Made by a program: the position numbers and the translations under genes. From positions 1-54,937 of the forward strand of contig NZ_PDZH01000011.1 in NCBI RefSeq assembly GCF_002735695.1: a stretch of DNA of 54,937 nt, in the 5' to 3' direction. The notes beneath the pieces were generated by a model, which searched no databases, was not told the DNA's origin, and saw only the letters and a list, made by a program, of their open reading frames with translations. The stretch is from Chitinimonas sp. BJB300. Lineage in GTDB: Bacteria; Pseudomonadota; Gammaproteobacteria; Burkholderiales; Chitinimonadaceae. Below are positions 9,385-53,838 of this stretch, in pieces (position 1 is the stretch's first letter; each line of letters starts with the position of its first letter).

Positions 9385-9524
9385 GAACCTGTCTAAAGTC
9401 TCGCGAGCTAAGGCAAGATAAGGCGAAAACAGCCGAGGAAGCGGAGTTTACACAGGGTAAATGAGCATTCCGAGGACGTTTTCAACGCCAGATTGCTGAC
9501 GCGCAGCAGACTTTAGACAGACTC
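9385..9524 (+). repeat. MITE-like repeat, copy A (140 bp)
   Basis: Forward-orientation copy of the family with ends GAACCTGTCTAAAGTCT ... AGACTTTAGACAGACTC. Flanks are ATA and TTA, so its 3-bp duplication is imperfect. It sits between divergent blh and bigR; its right end lies 16 bases from the bigR ATG and directly abuts the TAGGGAG ribosome-binding site. The original shared operator/promoter region must therefore have been split. Confidence 0.9.
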
Positions 9525-9540
9525 TTAGGGAGTGAGTGAC

Positions 9541-9888
9541 ATGCGTGAAGCGGTGTTGACCCAGGCTCAACTGGATACGCTGTGCCAAGCCGCGGATGCG
9601 GCAGCAACCTTGCTTAAACCATTAGGCAATGCAGATCGACTTTTATTGCTTTGCCAGTTGGTGCCTGGAGAAAAAAGCGTGTCGGTACTGGAGGCCAACA
9701 CCGGCATTCGGCAACCCAGCTTGAGCCAGCAACTGGGTGTATTGCGCAATGAAAAGCTGGTCAGCACCCGGCGTGATGGCAAATACATTTATTACAGCCT
9801 GATCAGTGATGAGGCAATGCGGGTGCTCGCGTTGATGTATGAGATTCACTGTTCGAAAGGCGAGAAAGGCCCGGAACATGCAGATTGA
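9541..9888 (+). CDS. bigR: BigR-type ArsR-family sulfide/persulfide-sensing repressor
   Basis: A 115-residue winged-helix repressor. The ATG at 9541 is chosen because AGGGAG precedes it by 8 bases; a GTG at 9532 would extend it by three codons. The recognition helix is in GIRQPSLSQQLGVLRNEKL and the wing in STRRDGKYIYYSL. Two cysteines match the redox pair of Xylella/Agrobacterium BigR: one in LLLLCQLVPGE (alpha-2) and one in YEIHCSKGE (near the C-terminus). In BigR they form a disulfide or polysulfide bridge when persulfide accumulates, releasing DNA. It is followed 59 bases downstream by a SulP transporter and is divergent from blh, so it probably represses both. The MITE upstream could alter its autoregulation. 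Confidence 0.87.
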   Translation: MREAVLTQAQLDTLCQAADAAATLLKPLGNADRLLLLCQLVPGEKSVSVLEANTGIRQPSLSQQLGVLRNEKLVSTRRDGKYIYYSLISDEAMRVLALMYEIHCSKGEKGPEHAD

Positions 9889-9947
9889 GGGGCCGTGTGA
9901 TAAGGCATGTAGTGGGGCGTTGACCTTGAACTGGCTGAGATACCACC

Positions 9948-11645
9948 ATGCCTGAATGGTTGCGCCGGTACCGGCTAACTGACTTACCGCACGATCTGGT
10001 TGCCAGTGCGACATTGCTGGTATTGCTGGTGCCGCAAGGCTTGGCATATGCCCTGTTGGCGGGGCTGCCACCACAGGCGGGTCTTTATGCCAGCATTGCC
10101 CCGGTGCTTGTATATGCGCTGTTTGGTTCCAGCGCCACCTTGTCGGTGGGGCCGGCTGCCTTGCCCTCGTTGATGACGGCAACAGCGTTGGCTGGGCTGG
10201 CTATACCGGGCAGCAGCAATTGGGTTGGGTTGGCGGCCATGGTGGCGTTGCTGTCTGGCTTGCTGCGCCTTGCGTTGGCTGGGCTTAAATTTGGATTTGT
10301 AGCCAATTTTCTTTCCCAGTCGGTCGTCGGAGGTTTTGTTGCAGGTTCGGCCGTGTTGATCGTGCTGAGCCAATCACCCCATCTCTTCGGCGTGTCGGTT
10401 CACGGTGCGACGGCTTGGGAAATTCTGGTTTCCCTGGTCAATGCCTGGGCGGGCTTGAACAAGGCGGCGTTGATGCTGTCGGTGGCGGCATTGGCGTTGT
10501 TGTTGGCAGGTAAACGTTGGACACGGCCACTTTTACAACGCTTGGGTATGCAGACCAAGCATGCTGATCTTGCAGCCAAGGCCTTTCCAATTGTTGTCGT
10601 GGCTTTGGGGGGTATTGCGGTAAGCACCCTGCAGTTGGGCGTACGGGTGGTCGGTCACTTACCCCAGGGGCTGCCGCCTTTGGCGTGGCCCAACATTGAC
10701 TTGCAAGCGGTACAAGCCATTTTGCCTGCTGTACTGGCGATTGCCTTGGTGGGCTTTGTCGACAGTTTCTCGATTGCACAATCACTGGCGCTGAAACGCC
10801 GCGAAACCGTCAATCCCGACCGTGAGTTGCTGGCGCTTGGGGCTGCCAACGCAGCGGCGGGTCTTACAGGGGGATTTCCGGTGTCAGCCAGTTTCGGGCG
10901 TTCTGCTGCCAATGAGCTGGCAGGTGCCCGCACCCAGCTGGCGGGTGTGCTGTCGGCTGGCTGGATGGCGCTGGTGCTTCTGGTTTTCACGGATTTGTTC
11001 GCCAGTCTGCCGCTGGCGGTGCTGGCGGCCACGATTGTCACTGCCGTTACCCAGATGATAGACCTGAGCGTGCTCAAGCTGGCGTGGCGTTATGACCGCC
11101 GTGATGCCGTGGTCTACCTGGCGACCTTCGCCGCGGTGCTGCTGCTGGGTGTTGTCGATGCCATATTGCTGGGAGTGGCGCTGTCATTGGCCTTGTTTAT
11201 CTGGCGCACAAGCCAACCCCATCTTGCTGTATTGGGGCGGGTGCCAGGGACCGAGCACTACCGCAATATCCTGCGTCACAACACCCATGTCGTGCCTGAA
11301 GTGCTGGCGATACGGGTGGATGAAAGCCTTTATTTTGCGAATATCCGCTTTGTTCGTACCCGTCTGATTGCTTTGCTGCGCGAGCGGTCAGAAACACGCC
11401 ATCTGCTGCTGGTGCTTTCCGCCGTCAACGCGATTGATGTCTCTGCACTACAGGGTTTGCGTGAGCTTAACCAGGGCTTGTTAGAGCAGCGAGTTGACTT
11501 GCACTTGGCTGAGGTCAAGGGGCCGGTCATGGATCTGCTCAAGCAAAGTGGTTTTCTGGATGAGCTTTCCGGCATTGTGCATCTGTCCACCTATACCGCC
11601 ATGCAACACCTTAGTGCCGATCACTATACTGATTATGTCATTTGA
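9948..11645 (+). CDS. SulP-family anion transporter with STAS domain
   Basis: A 565-residue inner-membrane permease (SLC26/SulP). The N-terminal ~400 residues are strongly hydrophobic with the family signatures LLVLLVPQGLAYALLAGLPP (TM1), YALFGSSATLSVGPAALPS (TM3) and FPVSASFGRSAANELAGART. A short hydrophilic linker leads to a C-terminal STAS domain (about residues 440-550: VPEVLAIRVDESLYFANI, LLVLSAVNAIDVSALQGLREL). It follows bigR on the same strand. In sulfide-responsive operons of this type it may export sulfite or sulfate made by persulfide oxidation; the substrate is inferred from context. The start at 9948 has only a weak ribosome-binding site. Confidence 0.9.
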   Translation: MPEWLRRYRLTDLPHDLVASATLLVLLVPQGLAYALLAGLPPQAGLYASIAPVLVYALFGSSATLSVGPAALPSLMTATALAGLAIPGSSNWVGLAAMVALLSGLLRLALAGLKFGFVANFLSQSVVGGFVAGSAVLIVLSQSPHLFGVSVHGATAWEILVSLVNAWAGLNKAALMLSVAALALLLAGKRWTRPLLQRLGMQTKHADLAAKAFPIVVVALGGIAVSTLQLGVRVVGHLPQGLPPLAWPNIDLQAVQAILPAVLAIALVGFVDSFSIAQSLALKRRETVNPDRELLALGAANAAAGLTGGFPVSASFGRSAANELAGARTQLAGVLSAGWMALVLLVFTDLFASLPLAVLAATIVTAVTQMIDLSVLKLAWRYDRRDAVVYLATFAAVLLLGVVDAILLGVALSLALFIWRTSQPHLAVLGRVPGTEHYRNILRHNTHVVPEVLAIRVDESLYFANIRFVRTRLIALLRERSETRHLLLVLSAVNAIDVSALQGLRELNQGLLEQRVDLHLAEVKGPVMDLLKQSGFLDELSGIVHLSTYTAMQHLSADHYTDYVI

Positions 11646-11782
11646 ACCAGTTAACAAACGTAACAAGACACATTAGTCTGAGGACATAAGCAAGGGTGGC
11701 GTGGCGATTGTTGGGGGCTACGAAGCGCTTGATAATATTGGCAAGGAGGTGTTGTTAGGACCGCTGCGAGCTATGGCTCGAG

Positions 11783-12736
11783 ATGGAATACAACATGCTG
11801 CCAACCCTGCCACCTACACGCGAGCCCCTGCGTATTGCCTCTATTGGTTACTTTAATCGGTTCAACTAAGGCGATGAACTTTTACAGCAGTCGATCGCCA
11901 GGCTCTTCATGCATCACGCGATTAACTTCCTTGGCTGGATGCCAAGCTATAGCGCTCTGAATGAATCTGATTTGGTTCTGGTAGGCGGTGGCAGCATTTG
12001 GCCCGACTCTGCTTTCTTCACCCGACATGAAACTCTGTTTGCTCACCTAAGTGTTCCATTTTGCGTAATTGGCATCTCCGCACGTAGCGACAACCCCGGC
12101 ATTAATAATCGTACACAGCGGCTGGTAGACCGCCCTGCTTTTTTCCATGTGCGAGACGAAGAGACCCTGCAGGTATTACCATCGAAATCGGGTATCCGTG
12201 CTGGGGCTGATCTCAGTTGGTGGAATGATGATATTCCTCAGTACCCTGCGGCGAGCGATGGGCGGGGGCCGATTGTGTTGAACCTGCGCGAGTGGAAGCG
12301 CAGTGACTGGTCACCCCCCAAGCTGGCGGCGGCTTGCCGTGAATCTGGCAGCGCTATTCTGCCGATGCCCATGTTTTTTGGCTTGCCGGTCCATGATTCC
12401 GCAATCGATCGAAACGATACGGCCCTCTTGCACGAACTTGGCCTGTCCGACCCGCGGCCTTATTGGCGTGACGAAGTTCTGTCTGACGCGGCTATTGTGG
12501 TGTCGATGCGCTTTCATGGCTTGCTGTTGGGGATTCGATCCTGCCGGCCGGTCATCGGGTTTGACTATCACCCTAAAATCCGCAGCTTGTTTGCTTCACT
12601 GGGGTTGAGCGAGTTTTGCCTACCCTTGAACGAGCCTGTGCGCCTGAGAGAGGCGATTGCAAAGATACGCGATGACTACGATGGCGTGGTGGAGAGGGTA
12701 TCGGCGATCTGCAGCGCGTTATTCGCTACAGGCTAG
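11783..12736 (+). pseudogene. Polysaccharide pyruvyl transferase-like gene, interrupted by in-frame TAA
   Basis: From ATG 11783 (or 11795) the frame reads MLPTLPPTREPLRIASIGYF NRFN, then TAA at 11867-11869, then GDELLQQSIARLF and on, open to 12736. The family start motif is N-(Y/F)-G-D-E, so TAA replaces a Tyr codon: a single-base nonsense change. The remainder is well preserved: LVLVGGGSIW, CVIGISARSDNPG, ADLSWW, IVVSMRFHGLLLGIRSCRPVIGFDYHPKI (typical of PF04230-type exopolysaccharide pyruvyl or related transferases). Immediately upstream, in another frame (11701-11850), VAIVGGYEALDNIG resembles the start of a second member of the same family, possibly a fused remnant. Translation could only restart downstream, for example at the ATG at 11909. 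Confidence 0.7.
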
Positions 12737-12789
12737 GCCGACCGCAGTGCATTTCTACAGACCTTGCAGCAACAGTTCAGTCATCGATT

Positions 12790-13521
12790 CTAGCTGTCAA
12801 AGCCCAATTGGGTTCGCAGCACAGCACGAACAGCACTTTGGCCGGGCGTATCCAGATACGGCAACATCTCGCTGTACCAGACAATAGCTTGGCTGGAAGC
12901 CAGCACCGGTATAACCACCGGCCAGCTTTGTGCCAGGAATGCATCAAAGTCGGGCAGGCCCCGCAGTGCCAGATAGGTAGGGTCGGTATTGTGCAGGGGC
13001 AGATAGACACCCTTCATCCAATCCAGATGGGGCAGGGCCGGTGCCAGCTGCTGTTGCTGGACCAAGGCACGGATAAATTGGGTTCGAATCAGCATGGGCG
13101 GCAATACTTTGCGCCGCTCGTTGATTTCGATAGCCTTGCTAATCCATGCATCCCCCCGCTTCGCGTCACCGATCATGATTGCGGCGACCGCCAATTGCAG
13201 CGCATGGTGTGCCGTGGGTGCCAGTTCAAACAGCTTTTGCGTCACCGAATAGGCATCCGGCCATTGTTCCGACGCGATTGCCGCCAGCGAGCAAATCTGA
13301 ATCGCATCCTGGCGTATGGATTTGTCCGTTGCTTGCATCAAGGGGGTCGCTGCGACAAGTGCAGCGCTAAAGTCGTCCAGCGATAAAGCGGTACGTGCGC
13401 CGGCAAGCGCCAGCTGGTCTGGCGTCAAGGTAGATGAATCGGCCGCAGGAGGTGCGGTCGCAACCGTAGTGGGTGAGGACGGCTTGGCTTGTTGGCCAAA
13501 GAGTTTAGAGAAGAATCCCAT
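12790..13521 (-). CDS. Hypothetical helical (TPR-like) protein, 243 aa
   Basis: The start is placed at MGFFSKLFGQ (13521), a typical protein N-terminus; the open frame extends 36 codons further upstream without good features. A Pro/Thr/Ala-rich linker (residues ~11-35) leads into regularly spaced alpha-helical repeats with alanine/leucine patterning (for example LAAIASEQWPDAYSVTQKLF, ALQLAVAAIMIGDAKRGDAW), suggesting a TPR-like scaffold. There is no signal peptide or membrane segment. It is convergent with the pyruvyl transferase pseudogene. The function is unknown. Confidence 0.72.
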   Translation of the reverse strand: MGFFSKLFGQQAKPSSPTTVATAPPAADSSTLTPDQLALAGARTALSLDDFSAALVAATPLMQATDKSIRQDAIQICSLAAIASEQWPDAYSVTQKLFELAPTAHHALQLAVAAIMIGDAKRGDAWISKAIEINERRKVLPPMLIRTQFIRALVQQQQLAPALPHLDWMKGVYLPLHNTDPTYLALRGLPDFDAFLAQSWPVVIPVLASSQAIVWYSEMLPYLDTPGQSAVRAVLRTQLGFDS

Positions 13522-13748
13522 TACGTCCCGGCATCCAGCGAGGTAGGTTGATAGTGTAATGCCAAGCGGATGGGAAGAAAAAGGAAGGCTACCCATCGCG
13601 CGTGAGGCTGATACCGTAGTAGCAGCCAATCGGCGTGCTAGCTACCCCCACTTCACCCTGCTGACAGCTGCGGGTGGCAGACCGTAAAAAAGATTCTTCG
13701 TCCATGCTAAACGCGGCGAAAAGGACTGCGCCCCACAATCAAACTTGG

Positions 13749-14183
13749 CTAGTCACACCAGGCGCGTGCCACCATTTGTGCATTGTTGTATTGGATACTG
13801 CATTGCTTAAGCCCTGCGGGTAAGGGTTTTGATAACTCGATGACACTATTGCGATAGCTGCAAATAAACCAATTCTCTTCAGACGTAGAGAAGGGCCAGA
13901 CATTGATGAAACTGCGCTCTTTCTTGGATTTAATGGTTCTATCTGGTGCCAGTATTGCCCTTTCTTCCGGCGGGCCTGATGAAAAGCCGGTGACCTCGCC
14001 ATGATGCTTGCTGGTAGTTGTGCCCTGATCAAGCACCGTAGGGGATGATTTTGAGATGCGCCATCCGCTGGGCGGGGTAACGATTTCTTGTTTTGTTTCT
14101 ATTTCAGCCGGGCAGGAAAGTTCAAGGCTGGCTGCAGCAACCTCGGCGGAAACCGCAAGCGCTAAGACAGTGAATATGCGCAT
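13749..14183 (-). CDS. STY0301-like secreted protein
   Basis: A 144-residue protein with an N-terminal signal peptide (MRIFTVLALAVSAEVAAA) and mature sequence LELSCPAEIETKQEIVTPPS. Paired cysteines and the end pattern WFICSYRN ... LSKPLPAGLKQCSIQY match the STY0301 family of small periplasmic or secreted proteins of unknown role. The start at 14183 is preceded by GAGAG about 9 bases upstream on its strand; the frame extends 13 codons further without a ribosome-binding site. It is divergent from the DUF2165 gene. Confidence 0.75.
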   Translation of the reverse strand: MRIFTVLALAVSAEVAAASLELSCPAEIETKQEIVTPPSGWRISKSSPTVLDQGTTTSKHHGEVTGFSSGPPEERAILAPDRTIKSKKERSFINVWPFSTSEENWFICSYRNSVIELSKPLPAGLKQCSIQYNNAQMVARAWCD

Positions 14184-14389
14184 TTTTAGTAATCTCTCAC
14201 CATTTAAGGTATGTGTAGGCAATCAAGGAATCGTACTTTACGTTGCCAGAATGTGGATAGGGTTAATGCCTAATGGCAGAATATTTATCAGTCTGTATTA
14301 TAGAAGGGCGCGAGTAATAAACATTGTCAGACACATCTAGTGTCTTCGTAGAAGTATTTCGACCCACTGATGCTACAGAAATCTCCGAA

Positions 14390-14920
14390 ATGACAACCAA
14401 TCAGCAATTCATTCAGATCCAACGTTTGACTAAAGGCGTGTTGGCGATTTCGATCGGCTTTTTCGGTCTACTTGTCGCTAGCGGGAATATGCTTGATTTT
14501 AATTCCAACTGGCAATTTGTTCAGCATGTGTTAGCGATGGACAGTATGGAACCTTGGTTTTCAAGCCCGGTGTTGCAAGCACGAGCTATTGCCAATGTAG
14601 GGCTGCAGCAGGCTTTCTATATCGCCATCATCTGTGGTGAATTGACTTTTGGTCTGCTATGCAGTCTTGGTGGGGGCTGTATATTAATTGGCACGCTAAT
14701 GCACACCAAGGCAAACTTTCTGTTACGAGGGAAAAGCTGCTTTACGCTTGGTTGCCTCATTGCTATTTTGGTTTGGTATACGGGTTTTGCCGTAATTGGG
14801 GGCGAGTATTTCGCCATGTGGGCCAATAAATGGAATGGCCAAATGAAAGCCTATGCGTTTATTGGTTTTATTTTACTAAGTCTGATGTATATTTCACAGC
14901 CAGAATATTCTGCTGAATAG
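14390..14920 (+). CDS. DUF2165 family small integral membrane protein
   Basis: About 176 residues, beginning MTTNQQFIQIQRLTKGVLAI (ATG 14390); a TTG at 14324 would add 22 residues without hydrophobic character. Four hydrophobic helices are visible: LAISIGFFGLLVASGN, AFYIAIICGELTFGLLCSLG, CLIAILVWYTGFAVIGG and AYAFIGFILLSLMYIS. The pattern VQHVLAMDSM followed by a helix with GE fits DUF2165 inner-membrane proteins. No function is established for the family. It is a single gene with no obvious operon. Confidence 0.8.
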   Translation: MTTNQQFIQIQRLTKGVLAISIGFFGLLVASGNMLDFNSNWQFVQHVLAMDSMEPWFSSPVLQARAIANVGLQQAFYIAIICGELTFGLLCSLGGGCILIGTLMHTKANFLLRGKSCFTLGCLIAILVWYTGFAVIGGEYFAMWANKWNGQMKAYAFIGFILLSLMYISQPEYSAE

Positions 14921-14964
14921 AGTAGCATTGGCGGTAAATGTTATTGATGTCGAATTGATCTTGT

Positions 14965-15771: not shown

Positions 15772-16082
15772 GATAGTGAATCTTAGGTGTTTAAATAATA
15801 TTTGATTGTAACATTCAGTTATCTATTATGTCTTTGTCCTAATGGTAAACGGGAGATGTTAACTTGGATTCGGCATGTGTATGGCCTAATCGAATCGGGA
15901 TAATATATTCCCGGCCGCCCCTATAATATATTCTTTGGGTGTGTAATCAAGAGGTAGATTTTCTGAATTGAGCGTGAGCCGAATACAAGCGATGGTGCGA
16001 TGTGAGTACAACTTTTTAATGTGTCGCTACGGTATATTCCGCTTGGTCGGGTCCCAACGTTATTCCGTTGAGACTTGCCGCT
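15772..16082. other. Intergenic region
   Basis: No gene is supported; short AT-rich stretches are compatible with promoters of the upstream minus-strand gene. Confidence 0.4.
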
Positions 16083-16113
16083 AGAAAGGGCGGTGTTTCC
16101 TAACCCGCCCTCA
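16083..16113 (-). terminator. Probable Rho-independent terminator of SRPBCC gene
   Basis: GGGCGG/CCGCCC stem (16088-16093 with 16105-16110), followed on the minus strand by TTTC, just downstream of the stop of the SRPBCC gene. Confidence 0.55.
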
Positions 16114-16117
16114 ATGC

Positions 16118-16600: not shown

Positions 16601-16785
16601 AAAAATCTCCCCGAATAATTTTCGCTTTGTAGGATGTGGTGGTTGCGCTTGAACAGGTTTCTAGCATTGGAAATATAGGCTGCCGGCCTCAAGGGACAAA
16701 TGATGAAGTTTGCTGATTGCCGGGAGACCAATGCCCAAGGTTGTCCCCTATTAGGCGAGGACAGGGCTGTTGAGAGGGATGTCGC

Positions 16786-17427: not shown

Positions 17428-17528
17428 GAGCTGGGAGCAGCCTTCGGCAAAGTAATCGGTTGCCGGAGTGTGCAGGATAAAGTCAGGTCAAACAAATCGC
17501 AGTCTGGCTAGTCGTTGGTTGCGTGGCG

Positions 17529-18524: not shown

Positions 18525-18548
18525 AAATCGATAGTTGGGTTGGACAAT

Positions 18549-18569: not shown

Positions 18570-18591
18570 GACTTTACACACTATCTAGATA

Positions 18592-21589: not shown

Positions 21590-21729
21590 GAACCTGTCTA
21601 AGGTCTCGCGAGCTAAGGCAAGATAAGGCGAAAACAGCCGAGGAAGCGGAATTTACAAGTGGTAAATGAGCATTCCGAGGGTGTTTTCAACGCCATATTG
21701 TCGACGCACAGCAGACTTTAGACAGGTTC
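21590..21729 (+). repeat. MITE-like repeat, copy B (140 bp)
   Basis: Forward copy with perfect TAA duplications on both sides (21587-21589 and 21730-21732). It overlaps the last codons of the LysR gene, whose present stop codon lies inside the right terminal repeat. Confidence 0.93.
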
Positions 21730-25454: not shown

Positions 25455-25479
25455 TACCGGGAGTTTGCAAGGCACTTAA

Positions 25480-26866: not shown

Positions 26867-27007
26867 GAACCTATCTAAAGTCTCGCGAGCTAAAGCAAGA
26901 TAAGGCGGAAACGGCCGAGGAAGCGGCGTTTACACAGGGTAAATGCGCATTCGGAGGGTGTTTTCAACGCCATATTGCCGATGCGCAGCAGACGCTTAGG
27001 CAAGTTC
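26867..27007 (+). repeat. MITE-like repeat, copy C (141 bp)
   Basis: Forward copy flanked by TAA on both sides (26864-26866 and 27008-27010), between the patatin stop and its terminator. Ends are slightly diverged (GAACCTATCTAAAGTCT ... AGACGCTTAGGCAAGTTC). An open frame runs through the whole copy. Confidence 0.92.
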
Positions 27008-29171: not shown

Positions 29172-29301
29172 GAACCTGTCTAAATTCTGCTGCGCTTCGG
29201 CAATATGGCGTTGAAAACACCCTCGGAATGCGCATTTACCACTTGTAAATGCTACTTCCTCGGCTGTTTCCGCCTTATCTTGCGAGACCTTGGACGGGCT
29301 C
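29172..29301 (-). repeat. MITE-like repeat, copy D (130 bp)
   Basis: Reverse-orientation copy. Left flank TAA (the stop codon of the preceding gene), right flank TGA, so the duplication has one mismatch. The right terminal repeat is degraded and about ten bases are missing near it. Confidence 0.88.
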
Positions 29302-29959: not shown

Positions 29960-30465
29960 GGTTCTGTCGCAATAAGCCCGTTGAAGTGAAAAAGTTCAGG
30001 TAAGCGGAGCCTATGAAAGCCGTCCACCTTCAGCTCGAGATGTCGAGCCTTCGCAATGTCCTGAAGCGTCTGCACTATCCGCTGGAGATCATGTTGATGT
30101 GCGTGCGCGGGTACGCAGCCTACCCACTGAGCCTGCGTCATCTGGAAGAAATGATGGCCGAACGCGGCGTGACGGTCGATCACGCCACGATACACCGCTG
30201 GGCGCTCAAACGCCTGCCCGTGCTGGCCAAGGTGTTTCGTCAGCGCCATCAAACGGCGAACTCGGCCGATGCTCGGATTCAAGGACTTTCGTTCGACGCC
30301 AGGATAATTGCCGGTATCGAAACCCTGCACATGATCTGCAAGGGGCAGCTCGACTGTCCCAAGGGCACCCCTTTATCTTCAGCGCAGCAATTCTATTCCC
30401 TAGCATACTGAGGACCACCACGGGACTGGGCTTTTCTCATCCATCACCCTTTTTGCGACAGAACC
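29960..30465 (+). mobile_element. Internally deleted IS6-family element with intact terminal repeats
   Basis: Perfect 13-bp inverted repeats GGTTCTGTCGCAA (29960-29972) and TTGCGACAGAACC (30453-30465) bound a 506-bp element; full IS6-family elements are about 800 bp. Expected 8-bp target duplications are absent (left flank CGTTGGAT, right flank GCCGTTGT), so the surroundings have been rearranged after insertion. The right side abuts an IS5-family remnant. Confidence 0.85.
30013..30411 (+). pseudogene. IS6-family transposase with in-frame internal deletion
   Basis: A 132-codon frame. The N-terminal ~70 residues are the IS6 HTH region (EIMLMCVRGYAAYPLSLRHL, EEMMAERGVTVDHATIHRW). From about residue 90 the text jumps to the family C-terminus (IIAGIETLHMICKGQLDCPK). 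The DDE catalytic core (about 100 residues between them) is missing, so the product cannot be an active transposase. Confidence 0.85.
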
Positions 30466-30656
30466 GCCGTTGTTCCACCACGTAAACATCGTAAAGTGCA
30501 GCGCGAGTATGACAAAGACTTGTATCGCCACCGTCATCTGGTCGAAAAGGCTTAAAGCGCAGGCGGGGCATCGCAGCCCGTTATGCCAAGAATATGGCCT
30601 CTTTTCTGGCGGCCGCCCAGATCCGCTGTATGGCGATCTGGATCGGCATCTTGTGA
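30466..30656 (+). pseudogene. IS5-family transposase C-terminal remnant
   Basis: AVVPPRKHRKVQREYDKDLY followed by RHRHLVEKA is the typical end region of IS5-group transposases. After a small gap and frame change it continues LKRRRGIAARYAKNMASFLA to a TGA at 30656. The catalytic-Glu segment is disrupted by the deletion and the N-terminal two-thirds are absent, presumably removed when the adjacent IS6 element rearranged the locus. Confidence 0.75.
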
Positions 30657-32850: not shown

Positions 32851-32990
32851 GAACCTGTCTAGAGTCTGCTGTGCGTCGGCAATATGGTGTTGAAAACCCC
32901 CTCGGAATGCTCATTTACCACTTGTAAACTCCGCTTCCTCAGCTGTTTTCGCCTTATCTTGCCCTAGCTCGCGAGACTTTAGACAGGTTC
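32851..32990 (-). repeat. MITE-like repeat, copy E (140 bp)
   Basis: Reverse copy with perfect TTA duplications (32848-32850 and 32991-32993), 38 bases after the ChaN stop. Confidence 0.93.
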
Positions 32991-36849: not shown

Positions 36850-36959
36850 GAACTGTCTAAAGCCTGCTGCGCGTCGGCAATATGGCGTTGAAAGCGTCCT
36901 CACTTCCCCGGCTGTTTTCGCCTTATCTTGCCTTGGCTCGCGAGACTTTAAACAGGTTC
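36850..36959 (-). repeat. MITE-like repeat, copy F (110 bp, internally deleted)
   Basis: Reverse copy with perfect TAA duplications (36847-36849 and 36960-36962). About 30 bp are missing from the middle. The left TAA is the stop codon of the GMC gene. Confidence 0.92.
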
Positions 36960-37706: not shown

Positions 37707-37791
37707 ACGACTTGAGTAACTGCTCTAAATTACCATTTGGATAAATTGAGCGTGTGCAGAGAAATAAAGCGGGATTTTTATAAAAGGAGAG

Positions 37792-37889
37792 GTGGCGAGC
37801 CCGACCCTCGGCACTTACCTGCATCGCTGTGGCTGCTTCCTTCCGGACCTGACCAGATTCACGACTTGGCAATGCGAGGAGACCCGCCA
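37792..37889 (-). ncRNA. ffs: Signal recognition particle RNA, small (4.5S) type
   Basis: On the minus strand the conserved core GGTCAGGTCCGGAAGGAAGC is present, comprising the SRP54-binding domain with its GGAA tetraloop. The 5' GGCGGGT and 3' GCTCGCC pair to close the helix, giving a ~98-nt hairpin RNA with no Alu domain, as in proteobacteria. A T-rich TTTTAT follows the 3' end and could terminate it. It is complementary to no gene; a plus-strand open frame over it is spurious. Confidence 0.95.
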
Positions 37890-46836: not shown

Positions 46837-46915
46837 ACGGGAGACCATCCTTACGTTAGGCGTAGTCGGCGGGCTCCTGTAAAATCCGGTTTTTGCACGG
46901 AAAGCCTGCTCGCCC

Positions 46916-48493
46916 ATGGACAAAATCCTCATCCTCGACTTCGGCTCGCAAGTCGCTCAACTTATCGCCCGTCGTGTTCGTGAAGCGCACGTTTACTGCG
47001 AACTGCACCCGTATGATATGCCATTGGCCGAGATCAAAGCCTTCAACCCAAAAGGTATTATCCTTTCTGGCGGGCCAAACTCGGTATACGAAAGTGACTA
47101 CCAGGCTGACGCCGGGTTGCTGGAACTGGGCGTACCGGTGCTGGGTATCTGTTACGGCATGCAATGGATGGCGCAGGCCTTGGGTGGCAAGGTTGAGGCA
47201 GGAGACAAACGTGAATTCGGTTATGCCGAGATTCGCGCCCGTGGCCACTCACAGCTTTTCAATGGCTTGCAGGATCGTACTAACGCCGAGGGGCATGGCC
47301 TCTTGGATGTATGGATGAGCCACGGCGACAAGGTTACCGCCATGCCTACGGGCTTTAGCGTGATAGCTGAAACACCTTCCTGCCCCATCGCGGCAGTCGC
47401 TGATGAAGTGCGTAAGTTCTACGCTGTGCAGTTCCATCCGGAAGTGACCCATACCAAGCGCGGCACAGACATGCTGCATCGATTTGTGTTGGGTATTGCT
47501 GGCGCTCAGCCCAGCTGGACGATGCCCAACTATATCGATGAAGCCGTAAAGAAAATTCGCGAGCAGGTCGGTGACGAAGAGGTGATCCTGGGCTTGTCGG
47601 GTGGTGTTGACTCCAGCGTGGCGGCAGCGCTGATTCACCGCGCTATTGGCGATAAACTCACCTGCGTATTTGTGGACCATGGCCTGTTGCGCTTACATGA
47701 AGGCGACATGGTGATGGACATGTTTGCCCGTGGTTTGGGCGTGAAGGTGATCCGCGTTGACGCAAGTAAGGAGTTCATGAGCCATCTGGCGGGGGTGACT
47801 GACCCAGAAGCCAAGCGCAAGATCATTGGCCGTGAATTCGTCGAAGTCTTTCAGCGAGAGTCCCAGAAACTGCCAAATGCTAAATGGCTAGCACAGGGCA
47901 CCATCTACCCCGATGTGATCGAGTCGGCGGGTTCCAAAACCAAGAAGGCGCATACCATCAAGAGCCACCACAATGTTGGCGGCCTGCCTGAGACCTTGAA
48001 CCTGAAGTTGCTGGAGCCATTGCGCGAACTGTTCAAGGATGAAGTTCGGGAGCTGGGTGTGGCGCTAGGTTTGGCGCACGAGATGGTCTACCGCCACCCC
48101 TTCCCCGGTCCGGGCTTGGGCGTACGTATTCTGGGCGAAGTAAGGGCAGAATATGCTAGCTTGCTGCAACGCGCTGATGCCATCTTTATCGAAGAGCTAC
48201 GCAATACAGTAGACGAGCATAGCGGCAAGACTTGGTACGACCTCACTAGTCAAGCCTTTGCTGTTTTCCTGCCGGTAAAGTCTGTGGGTGTGATGGGTGA
48301 CGGACGTACCTACGAATGGGTAGTTGCGCTACGTGCGGTTGTCACCAGTGACTTTATGACCGCCCACTGGGCCGAGCTGCCATATAGCTTGCTTGGTCGC
48401 TGCTCAAATCGGATTATCAATGAGGTACGTGGTATTAACCGCGTCGTCTACGATGTATCAGGTAAGCCACCAGCGACTATCGAGTGGGAATGA
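46916..48493 (+). CDS. guaA: GMP synthase (glutamine-hydrolysing)
   Basis: A 525-residue cytosolic enzyme converting XMP, ATP and glutamine to GMP. The N-terminal class I glutamine amidotransferase has nucleophile Cys79 in [10 protein letters not shown] and its His in [11 protein letters not shown]. The ATP-pyrophosphatase P-loop is [14 protein letters not shown], and the dimerisation tail includes [16 protein letters not shown], the invariant C-terminus. Full length. IMP dehydrogenase (guaB), its frequent neighbour, is not visible here. Confidence 0.97.
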
Positions 48494-48537
48494 AACAACG
48501 TTAGGTAAGTACTTGCAGTAAATGGCAAGAAAACTGA

Positions 48538-48568
48538 GAAAGGCCCTGATTTATCAGGGCTTTTCTAT
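48538..48568 (+). terminator. Rho-independent terminator of guaA
   Basis: GCCCTGAT/ATCAGGGC stem (48543-48550 with 48553-48560) followed by TTTTCT, about 50 bases after the stop. The remainder of 48,569-48,785 shows no gene. Confidence 0.9.
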
Positions 48569-48785
48569 TCCTGCCTGGCAATGCGTGGCAGTGGTTGGCG
48601 ACGGGATAACACCCCAGATGGCACGGGCAAGAAATCCGGATGGGTTGCACAACCCCGGAGCGGAAACTTTTGGACGCTGTTTAACCCAGAAATCTAGAAA
48701 GTTTTTGCACGCTGTTTTGTAATAAACCTGTGATTTCAGTAGCAGTTTGCAATTCCACGGCTGAATGAACGTTAACCTGAAGCCG

Positions 48786-49448
48786 TTAAGACTTGTTCGG
48801 GCGATAAAGCCAGCCAAAGACAACGGTAGCGGCAGTTGCACCACCCAGTTGAGCTGCAATGAACCCAAAGGTATCTGTAGGCCGAATACCAGCAAACGTG
48901 TTAGTTACTGATCGTGCAAGGGTGACGGTTGGATTGGCAAACGACGTGGAAGCGGTGAACCAGTAAGCGGCCGTGATGTAGGCGGCAACACCGAAGGGCG
49001 TGATTTTCGGGTGGTTGCGTGTGCAGCCGATGATGACGGCAAGGAGGCCAAAGGTAGCGACAAACTCACTCCACCATTGCGCTGCACCCGTCCTGATGTG
49101 CTGGGAGGCAAAGAAAAGTGGTTCGCCAAACATCAAATGTGCCGCGGCCACGCCAGCGAAGGCCCCGACGATTTGTACCATGACGTATGCAGGGACATCG
49201 CGCCAGCGGGTATTGCCAAGCCAAGCGTCTGAGAGGGTAACGACAGGATTGAAATGCGCCCCCGACAGCGGGCCGAAGGTCAGGATTAAGGCGATAAGGC
49301 CTGCTCCTGTAGCCAAGGCATTCGCGAGCAAAGCTAGACCAATATTGCCGCCCGCCAATCGTTCACCCATGATTCCGGAACCGACTACCGTTACCAGCAG
49401 AAAGGCTGTTCCGAGACCTTCCGCTACTACTCGACGACTGAGCGTCAT
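48786..49448 (-). CDS. Aquaporin of an arsenic operon (AqpS-like)
   Basis: A 220-residue six-helix major intrinsic protein. The two pore motifs read SGAHFNPVVTLSDAW (NPV for NPA) and SFANPTVTLARSV (NPT for NPA). It begins MTLSRRVVAEGLGTAFLLVT. Its ATG overlaps the arsC stop (ATGA). In rhizobial ars operons, an aquaporin (AqpS) takes the place of an arsenite pump and lets arsenite made by ArsC leave down its gradient. Here it appears intact while the three genes upstream of it are broken. Confidence 0.9.
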   Translation of the reverse strand: MTLSRRVVAEGLGTAFLLVTVVGSGIMGERLAGGNIGLALLANALATGAGLIALILTFGPLSGAHFNPVVTLSDAWLGNTRWRDVPAYVMVQIVGAFAGVAAAHLMFGEPLFFASQHIRTGAAQWWSEFVATFGLLAVIIGCTRNHPKITPFGVAAYITAAYWFTASTSFANPTVTLARSVTNTFAGIRPTDTFGFIAAQLGGATAATVVFGWLYRPNKS

Positions 49449-49945
49449 GAGGGCATATCCCCGATGATTTGCATCTCGCGCTTGATGGCTGCTTTATCGA
49501 ACTGGGGTAGAGGCAGATTCATCAACAACTGAACACGGCCTTTGATTTTGCGGAATACCTGATTGAAGGCTGCTCGCTTTACTTCTTCACTGCCTTCGAC
49601 GGCTGCTGGGTCTTCAAAGCCCCAATGCGCCGAAATTGGCTGGCCGGCCCACACAGGGCAGACTTCCCCCACTACGTTATCACAAACTGTGATTATGAAA
49701 TGCATTGGCGGTGCATCAGGCTGGGCGAATTCATCCCAACTCTTGCTGCGAAGTTTATCCGCCGTATAGCCCATCGAGACGATTTGCTCAATGGCGAAAG
49801 GGTTAACCTTGCCGGTCGGATAGCTACCCTCGCTTTAGGCCCGGAAGCGGCTGTTGCCCTTCGTGTTGATAAGGGCTTCAGCGATGATGCTACGCGACGA
49901 GTTGCCGGTACAGAGGACAAGGACATTATAAATATTTTCTGCCAT
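49445..49945 (-). pseudogene. arsC: Arsenate reductase (low-molecular-weight phosphatase type), in-frame TAA at codon 37
   Basis: The reading frame from ATG 49945 gives [20 protein letters not shown] (the P-loop CxGNSxRS with nucleophile Cys), then FRA, then TAA (49837-49835), then SEGSYPTGKVNPFAIEQI and on to 49445 without further lesion. Family sequences have an aromatic residue (usually Tyr) at the stop position (FRAYSAGSHP), so this is a one-base nonsense change. The C-terminal half retains ITVCDNVVGEVCPVW with its redox cysteines. Total length 166 codons as expected. It overlaps the aquaporin start. Confidence 0.85.
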
Positions 49946-49965
49946 TGGCTTTTCTCGATAGTGGA

Positions 49966-50457
49966 TCAGCAACAGGTTCCGGTCACCTTAAGTTTGCTGG
50001 TGGGTATGTAGCACGGTGATGTGCTTTCTGTCTTAGCCATGGGAATACAGCAACCAGATTCGGCAGAAGAACTTTCTTGATGGCTACCAAAGACAGGGAT
50101 AGTGTCCAGCGTATGGAAGGTTTCCCAAGCAATACCCTGCGGGTCGTTGATCCAATACTTGTCTGAATTCGCATAACAACATGCTGAATCGGTTTCTTCG
50201 GTCAAATTTGACGCTAGTCCTTGCAAGCGATGGTGCATTTCAGCCAGCTCATCAGCGGACTCAACCTGGATGCCAAGATGATTTAATCCAGTGGCCGCAC
50301 CCCGTTGAGAGATGGCAAAGTTCATACGAGGATCTTCTAGCATCCACTTCGCGTAATCGGATTTGCTGACGGTTGGTGCGGTTGCGAACATTGAAGTGTA
50401 GAAGTCGATGCTCTTGGTCAAGTTATCGACTTAGACATGCACGTGTAGGCGTTTCAT
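49966..50457 (-). pseudogene. arsI: ArsI/CadI-type C-As lyase, in-frame TAA at codon 9
   Basis: From ATG 50457, with AGAGAGG upstream, the frame reads MKRLHVHV, TAA (50433-50431), then VDNLTKSIDFYTSMF and continues to 49966. The family start is typically MKRLHVHVSVDNL, so TAA replaces a Ser codon (TCA to TAA). The rest is a well-conserved vicinal-oxygen-chelate dioxygenase: GLNHLGIQVES (His), ACCYANSDKYWINDPQGIAW and ETFHTL, with paired cysteines that bind trivalent organoarsenical. Reinitiation at the TTG at 50421 could give an N-truncated product without the first metal ligand. Confidence 0.85.
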
Positions 50458-50796
50458 GATGACCTCTCTTCTGTTTTGGCACAGGTTGGGTTACAGACAG
50501 ACGCGCAGGGATTGCCCCCGCAGCAGTTTTCACTAAGGAATGAGAGCAGCACATTCATCGTCTCAAAGTTGGCTGTGTAGATGACAAAGCGCCCTTCTTG
50601 GCGCGAAGTAGTCATGTCGGCATGTGTGAGTTCTTTCATGTGGAAAGAAATCGTAGAGGGGCAATCCCGGTTGCCCCAGCAATCTTTCCGGCAGATACGC
50701 CTTCAGGCCCGGCTTGTACCAAGACACGAAAGATTGCAAGACGAGAGTCTTGGGCGAGGGCTGCCAGTGCTGTAACAACGTCACTTGTTCCAATAT
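50454..50796 (-). pseudogene. arsR: ArsR-family arsenic-responsive repressor with two apparent frameshifts
   Basis: The protein can be followed as VVTALAALAQDSRLAIFRVL, GKIAGATGIAP, then STISFHMKELTHADMTTSRQ and RFVIYTANFETMNVLLSFL, but not in one frame. A base appears missing in the CCCC run at 50658-50661, and another near the start (50785-50790, AA where AAA would keep frame from a TTG). The C-terminal SENCCGGNPCASVC carries the thiols expected of an arsenic sensor. Its stop overlaps the arsI ATG (ATGA). This leaves the operon without an intact regulator. Confidence 0.75.
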
Positions 50797-50986
50797 TTTA
50801 ATGATAATAGAAATATGGAAACAATCGGGTGCCGAATAGAACAAGCGCGCGGTAGAGGGAGTGCTAGATTATGTGCATGTAGCGAAGTCAATTGATCTTT
50901 GCCAATGAATTTCTATTCTTATGCAGCCAGGAGGATGGCCTGTTTGAGGCCATTTAGCGCGTGACCATAATGAATAGGAAATGCAC

Positions 50987-52231
50987 ATGACAAAAATCAT
51001 CGACGATGTGAATACAGCAGCTGCCGCAGTGCTGGACCAAGCGACTGCTGCTGCAAATCAGACCACTTTTGCAGTGGGTGGTGTGATGGTCAATAACCAG
51101 ACTGGGGAAGTTATCTCTGCCATCCACAATAATGTGATCATCCCTTTAAGTAACAATGTCTCATTTACTTTCGACCCGACCGCGCATGGTGAACGCCAAT
51201 TGGTGTATTGGTATTACGCCAATAAAGAAGCACTGAAATTACCCGAGCCCAATCAGATTACAGTGATTACATCGCTTGATCCCTGTGCGATGTGTACCGG
51301 TGCACTACTAACGGCAGGGTTTAATGTCGGCGTGGTGGCAATTGATACTTATGCGGGTATTAATTGTGCGCAGAATTTCCAATTTGCGACCTTGCCCGCG
51401 AATTTGCGCACCAAGGCACAGAAAAACTTTGGTTACTATGCCTCTGGGGCGGCAAATTTCAAACCCCTGACCCGGTCTTATGTGGGTGGGCCCTCCGTTG
51501 CGTTTAAAAATGGCGTTGTCACACCTGCAAACCTCCGTGACTGCGGTACGGTGTTCACTCAGAGTGTTGATACGGTTCGTAACACCAGTAATTCCACGGG
51601 GCTGGCGCCTAGTCAAATGAGTAATCCGGCGGAATTGCCGTCTAACTCAGCGATTCTTCAGGCTTACCGAGCAATTTACAAAAAGGCGTTTACGATTAAA
51701 ATTGACAACCCACGCTTGCCTGATGCGCAGATATTGACTGAATTGAAAGCAGTGCTGGCTGATGCGCCAAACGCACGCAATGCAGTGGCATTCATTGATC
51801 CTTTTGGCAATCTGGTGTTGTGCATGGCTGATGCATTCAATACCAGCCCAGTGCATGCGGCGTTCATGAATGTAACTCAGGAGTATGCAAAGACACGTTG
51901 GGACCTTATGAATAAATACGCGCAGGCATCTACGACAGATAACCCCGCACTGTATTTAACGCACCCTAAATACGGCACCTTTGTTTATCTATATGCGCCG
52001 GATCCTGATGATTCAATAACCATCATGAGTTTGGGTGCTTACGGTTCGACGATGGAGGGGCCGATTCCCAATATGTTTCCGAGTAATCTACAGTTTTATT
52101 ATCCGCCACGTAATGGTGCCCAGTTCTCCGAATTGGTTCCTGTTGTGAATGAGCTTCCGCCGTTTTATACCCAAAACGTAAACATATCGTTAATGCAAGT
52201 ACCTGGCGTGACGCAGGCACCAACTAAATAA
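50987..52231 (+). CDS. Zinc-dependent nucleoside/nucleotide deaminase-like protein with extra C-terminal domain
   Basis: A 414-residue protein. The deaminase fold (residues ~15-150) has Zn ligands His67 in AHGER and Cys100/Cys103 in PCAMC, with Glu69 as proton shuttle. The usual HAE is HGE here. MTGALLTAGF-like text (CTGALLTAGFNVGVVAIDTY) fits the region after PCxxC. About 250 C-terminal residues (YRAIYKKAFTIKIDNPRLPD onward) match no family I recognise. The start at 50987 has AGGA 7 bases upstream (50981 is in frame). A small ATGGCC/GGCCAT hairpin precedes it (50935-50953). The substrate is unknown; no signal peptide. Confidence 0.78.
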   Translation: MTKIIDDVNTAAAAVLDQATAAANQTTFAVGGVMVNNQTGEVISAIHNNVIIPLSNNVSFTFDPTAHGERQLVYWYYANKEALKLPEPNQITVITSLDPCAMCTGALLTAGFNVGVVAIDTYAGINCAQNFQFATLPANLRTKAQKNFGYYASGAANFKPLTRSYVGGPSVAFKNGVVTPANLRDCGTVFTQSVDTVRNTSNSTGLAPSQMSNPAELPSNSAILQAYRAIYKKAFTIKIDNPRLPDAQILTELKAVLADAPNARNAVAFIDPFGNLVLCMADAFNTSPVHAAFMNVTQEYAKTRWDLMNKYAQASTTDNPALYLTHPKYGTFVYLYAPDPDDSITIMSLGAYGSTMEGPIPNMFPSNLQFYYPPRNGAQFSELVPVVNELPPFYTQNVNISLMQVPGVTQAPTK

Positions 52232-52245
52232 GCATCAGCCTTCAA

Positions 52246-52286
52246 AGTGCCAACAACTGCCGCATCATGCGACGGATGTTGGCACT
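52246..52286 (+). terminator. Long hairpin after the deaminase gene
   Basis: AGTGCCAACA (52246-52255) pairs perfectly with TGTTGGCACT (52277-52286), with a nested CGCAT/ATGCG inner stem. There is no T-run, so it may act as a Rho-type or stabilising hairpin. Confidence 0.5.
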
Positions 52287-52301
52287 GTGGCCCTGGCCTT
52301 A

Positions 52302-52443
52302 GAACCCTGTCTAAAGTCTGCTGCGCGTCGGCAATATGGCGTTGAAAACACCCGCGGAATGCGCATTTACGACTTGTAAACGTCACTGCCTCGGCTGTTT
52401 CCGCCTTCTCTTTGCCTTAGCTCGCGAGACTTTAGACAGGTTC
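52302..52443 (-). repeat. MITE-like repeat, copy G (142 bp)
   Basis: Reverse copy with perfect TTA duplications (52299-52301 and 52444-52446). On the minus strand the right duplication reads TAA and is the stop codon of the holin gene. Confidence 0.93.
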
Positions 52444-52749
52444 TTAGAGACGGGATGAAGGAGGGGATTTGTGCTGCCATCGCGGTCCACGGAATAAATC
52501 CGCTACATTGCCGCGTACAGCAAAGACGGCCAGGGTAAGAAACAGCACAGAGATGAACCCACTGACATCAAGCGCAACGTGTTCACCCAATACTAAGCGC
52601 ACAGGTACCGATGCGGTGGTAACAATGAGCAGATAGGCCAGCCAAGCCATATACGGACGGTGCAGACGACCTTTCCGGCGGAAAAACAATAGGCGTAAGG
52701 CGATCAAGCTGCACAGCGCGGCATAAATCCAATGGAAGTGGATTGTCAC
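52444..52749 (-). CDS. Phage holin-like protein (superfamily III/LydA-like)
   Basis: A 101-residue membrane protein with three hydrophobic helices: IYAALCSLIALRLLFF, MAWLAYLLIVTTASVPVRL and VSGFISVLFLTLAVFAV, and basic ends, as in three-helix holins of prophages. It uses GTG (52749), overlapping the stop of the upstream gene (GTGA). Its TAA stop is the MITE copy G target duplication. No endolysin is visible nearby, so the cassette is incomplete or remnant. Confidence 0.7.
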   Translation of the reverse strand: MTIHFHWIYAALCSLIALRLLFFRRKGRLHRPYMAWLAYLLIVTTASVPVRLVLGEHVALDVSGFISVLFLTLAVFAVRGNVADLFRGPRWQHKSPPSSRL

Positions 52750-53135
52750 TCTGTTCCCCCTTTCTGGCGTAGTTTGGCGAGCAACGCCATTGGATTGTTA
52801 GCCTGCCCAATTAGCCAGAGCAGCAGCTTGACCGATATGGCGGCAGTGATGAGGGCGCCCACACTTGGCGTGACGGTAATGTGCTCGGGCAGCAGCCACA
52901 CGAGTACGCTGGTGCCGGTGGATGCACTCGCTATTCCGGTGATGAAGGAAACCAAGAAGTAGCCAGCCTTGCACAGGTTGCTGATCTCCTTGGCGCTCAG
53001 CACGAACACGGCAGCGCCCGCAATAGCGCCCATGACGATGCCGGCATCCACACCAGGAAACAGGCTAACCAAGGTGGTGGTGGAAAGGCTGGTATTGGCT
53101 ACCGTGCCGGATGTTGGAGTAACAGGTTCAGCCAT
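52746..53135 (-). CDS. Putative phage holin (holin_8-like)
   Basis: A 129-residue protein starting MAEPVTPTSGTVANTSL. Hydrophobic segments are at GIVMGAIAGAAVFVLSAKEI, AGYFLVSFITGIASAS and ITAAISVKLLLWLIG, followed by a charged end (LAKLRQKGGTE). MAEP followed by GAxAGAxVFVxSAKE is a recurring prophage holin pattern. It overlaps the second holin gene by 4 bases. The long open frame upstream of MAEP looks non-coding. Confidence 0.7.
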   Translation of the reverse strand: MAEPVTPTSGTVANTSLSTTTLVSLFPGVDAGIVMGAIAGAAVFVLSAKEISNLCKAGYFLVSFITGIASASTGTSVLVWLLPEHITVTPSVGALITAAISVKLLLWLIGQANNPMALLAKLRQKGGTE

Positions 53136-53146
53136 ATCAGTTAGTC

Positions 53147-53380
53147 TCAAAATTGGAGAGGGGTTTGGGTTTGAGGAGGCAGCATACTGGACAAGGCCAC
53201 GGCGGCGCCAAGCGACAAGGTATGAGTTATCAGTACTGCTTCCACAACGACGGGTGTGCGGCCGTACCGGCGATAACAAATCCACTCCACGTTGTCGCTG
53301 TGTCGAGCGATAACGCACATCAAAGCAGCTTGATCAGAGTGCGCGACTTGTCCAATGAATTGCTTACTACTAGTTTGCAT
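53147..53380 (-). CDS. Small phage-associated hypothetical protein, 77 aa
   Basis: The frame from ATG 53380 begins MQTSSKQFIGQVAHSDQAAL and ends 12 bases before the holin start on the same strand, with a hydrophobic stretch near the end (TLSLGAAVALSSML). The open frame extends further upstream but overlaps the preceding gene. No family is recognised; assignment to the phage cassette is by position. Confidence 0.45.
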   Translation of the reverse strand: MQTSSKQFIGQVAHSDQAALMCVIARHSDNVEWICYRRYGRTPVVVEAVLITHTLSLGAAVALSSMLPPQTQTPLQF

Positions 53381-53411
53381 CACCGTATTTGTCCGTTTCG
53401 ACGAGGCTGCG

Positions 53412-53612
53412 CTAGATGGCGTTGTAGTTGTGCAGGCGCTGGGTCCAGGTAGGCTTGCGCGAGGTAATACGCTCCTCGGCAATACGTTGCAGGTAGATGC
53501 GTTCTCCGTTGATTTGCTCCGTGGGTACCGCGGCCAAGGTGCGAAGGCCCGGGCTCTTTTGCTGCTCTGACCACACAGCCAACCCCTCGTTCATATTAGC
53601 CAGTGCTTTCAC
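53412..53612 (-). CDS. Small phage-associated hypothetical protein, 66 aa
   Basis: A GTG-started frame (VKALANMNEGLAVWSEQQKS ... ERIYLQRIAEERITSRKPTW). It is predominantly helical and reads naturally, ending 31 bases before the next small gene. It resembles short proteins in prophage structural/lysis regions, but no named family is clear. It could be the 3' remnant of a longer phage gene. Confidence 0.4.
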   Translation of the reverse strand: MKALANMNEGLAVWSEQQKSPGLRTLAAVPTEQINGERIYLQRIAEERITSRKPTWTQRLHNYNAI

Positions 53613-53724
53613 TAGCGCATTGCGTCAGAACTGGTTCACGATCCTGCTGCGCAGGTGTGATCGGGACGCATAGGCTGCTGGAAAGCCCTCGCAAGGGGAG
53701 GCCGAACTGCTACGGCGATATGCG

Positions 53725-53838
53725 CCAGCAATACGATGTTGAAAGTACTCTCGGAATGCGCATTTACGACTTGTAAACGCCACTGCCTTGACTGTTTCCA
53801 CCTTGTCTTGCTTGGCGCGAAACACTTTTGACAGGCTC
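53725..53838 (-). repeat. Degenerate MITE-like repeat, copy H
   Basis: Contains the internal family signature (GGAATGCGCATTTACGACTT, then ACTGTTTCCACCTTGTCTTG) and an altered right end CTTTTGACAGGCTC. The left terminal repeat is unrecognisable or displaced (a weak match begins near 53627). Bases 53,839-54,093 hold no gene and are AT-rich towards the end, likely the promoter of the next gene. Confidence 0.75.

Follow-up and report, generated by a model that had tools for sequence, protein, structure and literature searches.

Contig NZ_PDZH01000011.1 of Chitinimonas sp. BJB300, 54,937 nucleotides long and analysed here in full ("the window"), carries eight short repeats (copies A to H). A preliminary description, made from the letters of the window, took them for a multi-copy family resembling miniature inverted-repeat transposable elements (MITEs), and the locus raises the question of what such elements consist of and what moves them. 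Bacterial MITEs are usually seen as shrunken relatives of one insertion sequence (IS). We confirm that the eight copies and their family are MITEs, and we find that their interior is a core, missed by the preliminary description, which recurs in elements whose ends differ. As the best explanation we propose, with a probability of about 0.75, a two-part MITE in which IS-matched ends enclose an exchangeable hairpin core.

The eight copies and their family

The window is contig C22 of the BJB300 genome (G000), a 4.74-Mb assembly in 374 contigs. The 17-bp end pattern gave 12 matches in the window at up to 3 mismatches versus 0.06 expected, and R1, a covariance model trained on the core alignment A1 (see below), matched 8/8 window copies (E 5e-23 to 6.5e-5); its two extra weak matches were the opposite strand of copy D (E 0.16) and positions 3911-3951 (E 0.49). 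By end pattern and core model, the seven clear copies (A-G) and the decayed copy H are all present where they had been placed, with slightly corrected boundaries (the end of C is 27007 and that of D 29301, and H is one-ended). The strand of the core bears out that A-C lie in one orientation (+) and D-H in the other (-), and the perfect 3-bp TAA or TTA duplications described for B, C, E, F and G were recovered, together with the one-base difference in A and D:

9385-9524, + strand: MITE copy A, 140 bp; flanks ATA/TTA; core 9408-9505; 84.0 bits
21590-21729, + strand: MITE copy B, 140 bp; TAA/TAA duplication; core 21613-21710; 91.2 bits
26867-27007, + strand: MITE copy C, 141 bp; TAA/TAA duplication; core 26890-26987; 72.8 bits
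29172-29301, - strand: MITE copy D, 130 bp; flanks TAA/TGA; core 29191-29288; 68.7 bits
32851-32990, - strand: MITE copy E, 140 bp; TTA/TTA duplication; core 32870-32967; 87.6 bits
36850-36959, - strand: MITE copy F, 110 bp; TAA/TAA duplication; internal deletion that takes out part of the core; core remnant 36868-36936; 26.6 bits
52302-52443, - strand: MITE copy G, 142 bp; TTA/TTA duplication; core 52323-52419; 57.1 bits
53719-53838, - strand: MITE copy H, decayed; core 53719-53816; end 53822-53838; left end lost; 58.4 bits

Genome-wide, the end GAACCTGTCTAAAGTCT (at most 2 mismatches) was found 174 times in forward and 168 times in reverse direction, with 0 matches of the reversed-pattern control; hence the genome holds about 170 copies, and the multi-copy character of the family stands. 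R1, whose training set contained one G000 copy, gave at least 150 matches in the genome (E 4.2e-22 to 1.9e-12; 1376 candidates), and BLAST with copy B recovered at least 41 near full-length copies, B included, at 93-100% identity (40 of 256 candidates scored). We obtained 48 unique two-ended copies from the window and from L001-L030 and L166-L195, some of these loci having been picked by core-model score. Forty-four of them are 140 bp long, with no room for a transposase gene. A perfect 3-bp duplication flanks 36/48 (TTA 20, TAA 13, TCA 2, TGA 1), and the remaining 12 show one mismatch in 8 cases and neither in 4, whereas flanks of different copies, when paired, agreed in 35% and the next triplet outward agreed in 1/48. 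The perfect 3-bp duplications, 33 of them TTA or TAA, are above chance.

Three observations concern the arrangement of the copies. Eight copies per 55 kb is a local excess, as ~170 in 4.74 Mb would predict about two. At C296:27290-27763 neighbouring copies have their ends 3 bp apart (27429, 27433), as if the newer copy had used the target triplet of the older. At L063:1313-1360 lies a 48-bp mini-element (TTA, GAACCTGTTC...GAACAGGTTC, TAG), which consists of ends with almost no interior.

The distribution of the element is patchy, since it is absent in the same genus and present in other families. G022 and G035, from two other families of the order, carry homologous copies of up to 84% identity, and 9/16 of their copies displayed with flanks have perfect TAA, TTA or TCA duplications. 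Five further genomes of 60 hold core fragments only, at six loci, all matched by R1 at full length, one of these loci (L036) being the same element as an R1 training row. The preliminary description had reasoned that finding the element at the same place in all relatives, with no empty sites, would refute its view; 6/6 same-genus genomes are without a match at E 0.001, but a clean empty site at copy B was not obtained, because homology with 3/6 relatives resumes 2 bp beyond its right end while the left flank is too diverged.

As for the mobiliser, an IS5-like transposase had been suggested, along with an IS5-family remnant at 30466 in the window. The latter was not confirmed, the single frame tested having no NCBIfam match. 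Elsewhere in the genome, L080 is a 791-bp decayed IS5-family element with GAACCTGTCTAAAGTCTTTT at one end; it agrees with the MITE ends at 17/17 bases on one side and 16/17 on the other, and it is flanked by TTA on both sides. Part of its disrupted reading frame scores 55 bits with PF13340 (cut-off 34.3) and 58.4 bits with the NCBIfam IS5 model NF033580, below the cut-off of 110. The interiors of the L080 IS and the MITE diverge beyond about 20 bp, hence the MITE is not merely a deleted copy of L080. The second IS5-type remnant, L065, scores 36.3 bits with PF01609 (over the cut-off, another tested piece being just below it), and its terminus reads AGATCGTAAACAGGTTC, then TTA, then a further GAACCTG; exactly this end, GAACCTGTTTACGATCT, is borne by L047, a MITE of G035. 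Among the 19 PF01609 and 14 PF13340 matches in the G000 assembly, both 17-bp ends were found only at L080, and one related end at L065.

The suggested mobiliser is favoured by the shared ends, the TTA flanks and the IS5 domain of L080, whereas a full-length intact IS was not found. Mobilisation by an IS5-type transposase is the best-supported reading of the MITEs: judging from the shared ends and the duplications, an IS5-family transposase would cut them out and insert them at TWA triplets. They resemble IS5-family MITEs in their 17-bp IS5-family ends, their 3-bp TWA/TNA duplications, their lack of genes and their high copy number, but differ in the hairpin core interior, which is shared with elements of other IS ends. 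IS1031-type IS5 MITEs have TNA duplications, and our elements presumably fall in the IS1031 group.

A hairpin core inside different ends

Core fragments in relatives, along with plasmid matches in Pseudomonas and Halomonas, drew our attention to the interior. It is a hairpin core of ~98 nt with the fixed words AAGGC, AAAAGCGSAGTTTAC, a loop, GTAAATGAGCATT and AACGC. The pattern GTTTACN{4,7}GTAAATGAGCATT was found in 56/369 genomes of the class, the window genome included, with top counts per genome of 110 (window genome), 74 and 70 and with 0 matches of the reversed pattern in every row; 60 further stretches were taken for analysis. Letters outside the search pattern are also kept, namely AAGGC on the left, AAAAGCGSA ahead of the apex and AACGC on the right.

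Alignment A1 contains 56 of 69 distinct cores, 13 having been left out for indels, degenerate flanks or poor alignment, and spans 36 genomes including G000 (one copy) and G024; R1 matches to its rows are by construction. In the stems 93.4% of cells are paired and double changes occur at 18/29 pairs, with 279 double-change cells versus 80 in shuffles, and the covariation score is 0.468, as opposed to 0.149 (sd 0.009) in the shuffled control and no more than 0.111 in the slid one. G-T pairs are commoner than A-C pairs (157 versus 25 overall, 101 versus 25 minus the innermost stem), some of which excess could reflect the G-U pairing of the folding program; the per-sequence energies are independent of that alignment. 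The sense strand folds more stably in 53/56 cores, with RNA parameters and DNA parameters alike, and for copy B the RNA fold z is -9.1 on the + strand and -5.9 on the opposite strand.

A scan of a contig collection for the core gave at least 120 stretches. The 80 listed comprise 22 stretches from Bacteroidota metagenome-assembled genomes (MAGs; 14 of Alistipes) and 5 that belong to a single Desulfobacterales MAG; most of the others come from Pseudomonas, Halomonas and further Gammaproteobacteria as GTDB defines them. On the Bacteroidota loci and 3 of the 5 Desulfobacterales loci R1 matched 25/25 (E 1.2e-12 to 3e-24), 23 of them over the full model. The Alistipes locus L241 encodes a 1102-aa SecA, of a type that we take to be typical of Bacteroidota, and TypA. 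Plasmid copies appeared in 7 records in one search and 4 in another. Four IMG/VR viral contigs (L358-L361) have the exact core pattern and are possible carriers between hosts.

The core is framed by various ends. We looked for terminal inverted repeats (TIRs) of 11 bp or longer at 164 cores, each with 130 bp of sequence to its left and right; 125 had a TIR and 39 did not, and 42/125 also showed a duplication of 3 bp or more (3 bp in 4, 4 bp in 30, 5 bp in 3, 6 bp in 3 and 8 bp in 2). In the subset from named genomes a TIR was present at 76/99 cores versus 6/297 random places in the same loci, and a TIR plus duplication at 21/99 versus 0/297. The main end types are as follows:

CAGGCTGTTGAAAA: 34 loci; duplications CTAG 9, TTAG 2, TTAA 2, CTAA 1, others
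TTCTACTGTGTCAC: 8 loci
GGGCACCTCTAAAA: 7 loci
GTMACTATTCAGC: 8-bp duplications; 2 loci by the TIR finder, a third seen separately
GAGGCTGTCCGAGA: CTAG duplication
Bacteroidota end type, e.g. AAGAGAGTGAATAA: 6 loci

The Bacteroidota end types group mostly together, one cluster also containing L266, a Billgrantia locus. The 8-bp duplications are presumably IS66-like; IS66 and DUF772 transposases, tried as the source of the other ends, were rejected, as 15 loci had no common ends. The MITEs of G263 end in CAGGCTGTTGAAAAA, and at L352 this end has an IS1182-type N-terminal transposase remnant directly inside it (NCBIfam IS1182, E 1.2e-6, 27.7 bits, cut-off 270, model positions 3-60 of 488). This IS1182-type remnant was the yield of a survey of CAGNCTGTTGAAAAA, being present in 1 of 14 stretches taken; no IS-sized inverted pairs of CAGNCTGTTGAAAAA were seen by eye among the matches listed for five genomes, where the reversed-pattern control matched twice in G263 and nowhere in the other four. 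It therefore appears that two IS families, IS5 and, on weaker evidence, IS1182, have ends in common with core-bearing MITEs.

Among known elements, MITEPsy1 of Pseudomonas syringae is described as a 100-bp MITE of family "IS5?" with CTAG or YTAA duplications and observed transposition, and MITEPsy1-like sequences may, in its authors' account, be widespread (PMC3189936). Its left end occurs in 0/357 of the loci collected by then, and its likeness to the core elements lies in these published traits.

These data bear on a simpler explanation, in which the elements are ordinary MITEs, the palindrome is a by-product, and the cross-species likeness reflects one horizontally spread element with drifted ends. 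Long palindromes are usual in MITEs, and the patchy presence, the copies on a few plasmids and in four viral contigs, and a core that in G000 is no better conserved than the rest would all suit it. However, a single drifting transposase site could hardly give rise to end types with 3-, 4- and 8-bp duplications, the stems covary while the internal-loop letters are fixed, the fold is strand-specific, and the core is present in several phyla, so that we consider this explanation decidedly unlikely.

We favour instead the two-part MITE, a non-autonomous DNA transposon that would have two separable parts. The outer TIR would be matched to a resident IS (here as the 17-bp IS5-family end), and the inner core of ~98 nt would stay nearly constant while the ends vary by host; the sequences show it joined to ends from more than one IS family, both in Gammaproteobacteria and in assemblies placed in Desulfobacterales and Bacteroidota. 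New ends could possibly be acquired by exchange between adjacent elements, given the ends 3 bp apart at C296.

Several points weigh against this reading. All 22 Bacteroidota and all Desulfobacterales loci come from MAGs, so misbinning is possible, and the Desulfobacterales ends look like the Gammaproteobacteria type. The 19 apical letters of A1 are invariant because they were set by the search pattern. No intact IS with the 17-bp ends was found in the 374-contig assembly, the sole two-ended IS copy being decayed, and no PF13340 match was found in G022 or G035, though both carry homologous MITEs. The IS1182 link comes from one truncated copy with a sub-threshold NCBIfam match and no Pfam match, and the 15 loci found with PF05598 and PF03050 in 13 genomes lacked the MITE ends tried. 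Moreover, the part that we give the core in propagation is an inference.

What the core may do

We suggest that one strand of the core, be it RNA or single-stranded DNA, folds at some stage in the spread of the element itself, and give this role not quite an even chance. It would leave the core kept across lineages yet unprotected in the individual copy, and with no direction relative to genes. Among 32 G000 copies, substitutions per site and copy were 0.012 in the core, 0.023 in the TIR and 0.031 in the rest (0.014 without common variants), and the difference between core and rest was not significant (p 0.60; 0.94 without common variants); the test was repeated without the loci picked by core-model score, since such a choice favours the core. 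No direction bias was found beside co-directional genes (7 versus 8 in G000, 21 versus 25 in named genomes), these counts resting on mechanical open reading frames (ORFs) and the named-genome count omitting 38 cores near contig ends. Nor was element direction related to GC skew (38 versus 46, p 0.30; in G000 15/40 positive, p 0.11), and copy B has no promoter-like and no terminator-like site inside. Taken together, the missing signs of gene direction, skew, conservation, promoter and terminator argue against a function kept per host site and would rather point to one that serves the lineage as it spreads.

The same results bear on the idea that the core is an RNA element useful to the host in gene regulation, e.g., as a 3' untranslated region stabiliser, an RNase site or a terminator. 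In its favour, 0/35 G000 loci lie inside predicted ORFs of at least 120 aa, as do 5/84 in named genomes, and in Yersinia transcripts, according to what a review relates, copies of the ERIC repeat expose an RNase E site (PMC10969869). The Rfam model of sX9, a Xanthomonas sRNA, moreover gave a weak full-model match antisense to the left half of copy B (21591-21667, - strand; 22.4 bits, gathering 44); no Rfam family reached its gathering score on the elements, and sX9 had no match at E <=0.5 in 14 further loci, several with the element. Since gene direction is even, the core in G000 is no better conserved than the rest and copy B lacks promoter- and terminator-like sites, we regard a host RNA as unlikely. 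We also asked whether the conserved ATGAGCATT might be coding, and dropped the idea, as L096, L097, L099 and L102 stop 3-4 codons past the ATG.

Another possibility is that the core forms a hairpin in single-stranded DNA, on one of the two arms of a replication fork, and helps the ends to pair in transposition. The greater stability of the sense strand in 53/56 cores with DNA parameters too is in keeping with this proposal, but direction was unrelated to GC skew, and we think it somewhat unlikely. A role in the element's own spread, whichever nucleic acid folds, is the reading that we retain.

The E. coli K-12 repeat and ERIC

R1 was run on 250 kb of E. coli K-12 in five stretches, one of them chosen as expected to hold ERIC, and returned just two matches at E <=10, E-values here taking no account of the fact that all compared elements are hairpins. 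The stronger (45.3 bits, E 1.7e-9) is a repeat in the cysP-ucpA interval, on a stretch that had been selected without regard to it, and the weaker (13.8 bits, E 1.2) is the ERIC between ybhI and ybhJ. Two primer-like probes match the latter exactly, their only other matches being two at 6/22 mismatches in L205. The former is located as follows:

L206:43640-43800 (K-12 2543640-2543800): cysP-ucpA repeat; ends GAACTTGGTTCAACAGGC / GAACTAAGTTCACCAGGC; core fold; record without a feature there

This repeat matches in 5375/5426 E. coli genomes, at 1-8 places each (median 5), and covers 80% of the query in 1631. It has the same apical fold as the core with different stem letters, and by the covariance model it is a member of the shared-core superfamily that we propose.

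For ERIC the signal is fainter. Six ERIC loci run alone against R1 gave 2 full-length matches (24.8 and 24.0 bits), 1 of the apex only and 3 without a match. An ERIC-like apex occurs in 2/369 genomes of the class (L196 and L197), both of which also have the AGGCG and CAACG boxes, outside the pattern, and reach 48.4 and 33.7 bits with R1. In the reverse direction, an ERIC-only model, R2, matched L096 (E 2.5e-4), L197 (E 6.1e-4) and L138 (E 0.056) in register among 58 sources. In 305 kb of K-12 plus window it returned nothing but ERIC, itself a training sequence; the window elements, without an R2 match in the window at E <=10, are thus not ERIC.

ERIC (or RU-1) of Enterobacteriaceae is described as a 127-bp unit with TA duplications (PMC2759123). 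It shares with the core the AAGGCG box and, in several copies, the CAACGC box, at matching distances from the apical TTAC-loop-GTAA stem, as well as the weak model matches in both directions, but differs in its apex (GAGCTTAC/GTAAGTGACT), its ends and its TA duplications. Possibly the remotest matches, chiefly ERIC, are unrelated hairpins that score because any long hairpin does. Sequence-only nhmmer indeed misses the ERIC of L163, and both the E of 1.2 in 250 kb and the uneven result of the six ERIC loci fit this view. Yet a model that scored any hairpin would hardly yield in 250 kb of K-12 only two matches, one at E 1.7e-9 and the other an ERIC, nor would R2 find family members in register and nothing but ERIC in 305 kb. 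Hence we hold chance likeness to be rather doubtful, and we consider ERIC, on the evidence of the two models, probably kin to the shared core.

On a wider scale, we tentatively speculate, at odds clearly short of even, that one structured core (RNA or single-stranded DNA) persisted across phyla by repeatedly gaining the ends of unrelated IS, and that it branched into ERIC, the other E. coli repeat and, perhaps, the sX9 RNA of Xanthomonas. If true, the core would correspond in bacteria to the conserved domains of short interspersed nuclear elements (SINEs), and ERIC, widely used in strain typing, would be given an origin. The highly conserved SINE domains (CORE, V, Deu) are described as unchanged middle domains found in different mobile elements, including a MITE (PMC6887750). 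The likeness is one of pattern and serves as an analogy, SINEs being eukaryotic and mostly retroelements. A core that outlives its ends would mean that in a MITE the middle may be what is conserved, and the ends what is replaced. The core model also offers a search tool for unannotated repeats and makes the function of the core testable. REP/BIME elements, which are without TIRs or duplications and are paired with the RAYT transposase, resemble the core elements in being palindromic, intergenic and of high copy number; unlike them, the core elements have TIRs and target duplications (no search was aimed at RAYT genes). Among the papers listed in literature searches, none tells in its title or the opening of its abstract of a single core with several IS ends.

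Two further features were observed in the window. An IS6-family transposase remnant at 30013-30357 (E 2.3e-19, below the model cut-off) adjoins copy D, and a gene for the bacterial small signal recognition particle RNA (Rfam RF00169, 74.9 bits) lies near copy F, at 37791-37888 on the - strand.

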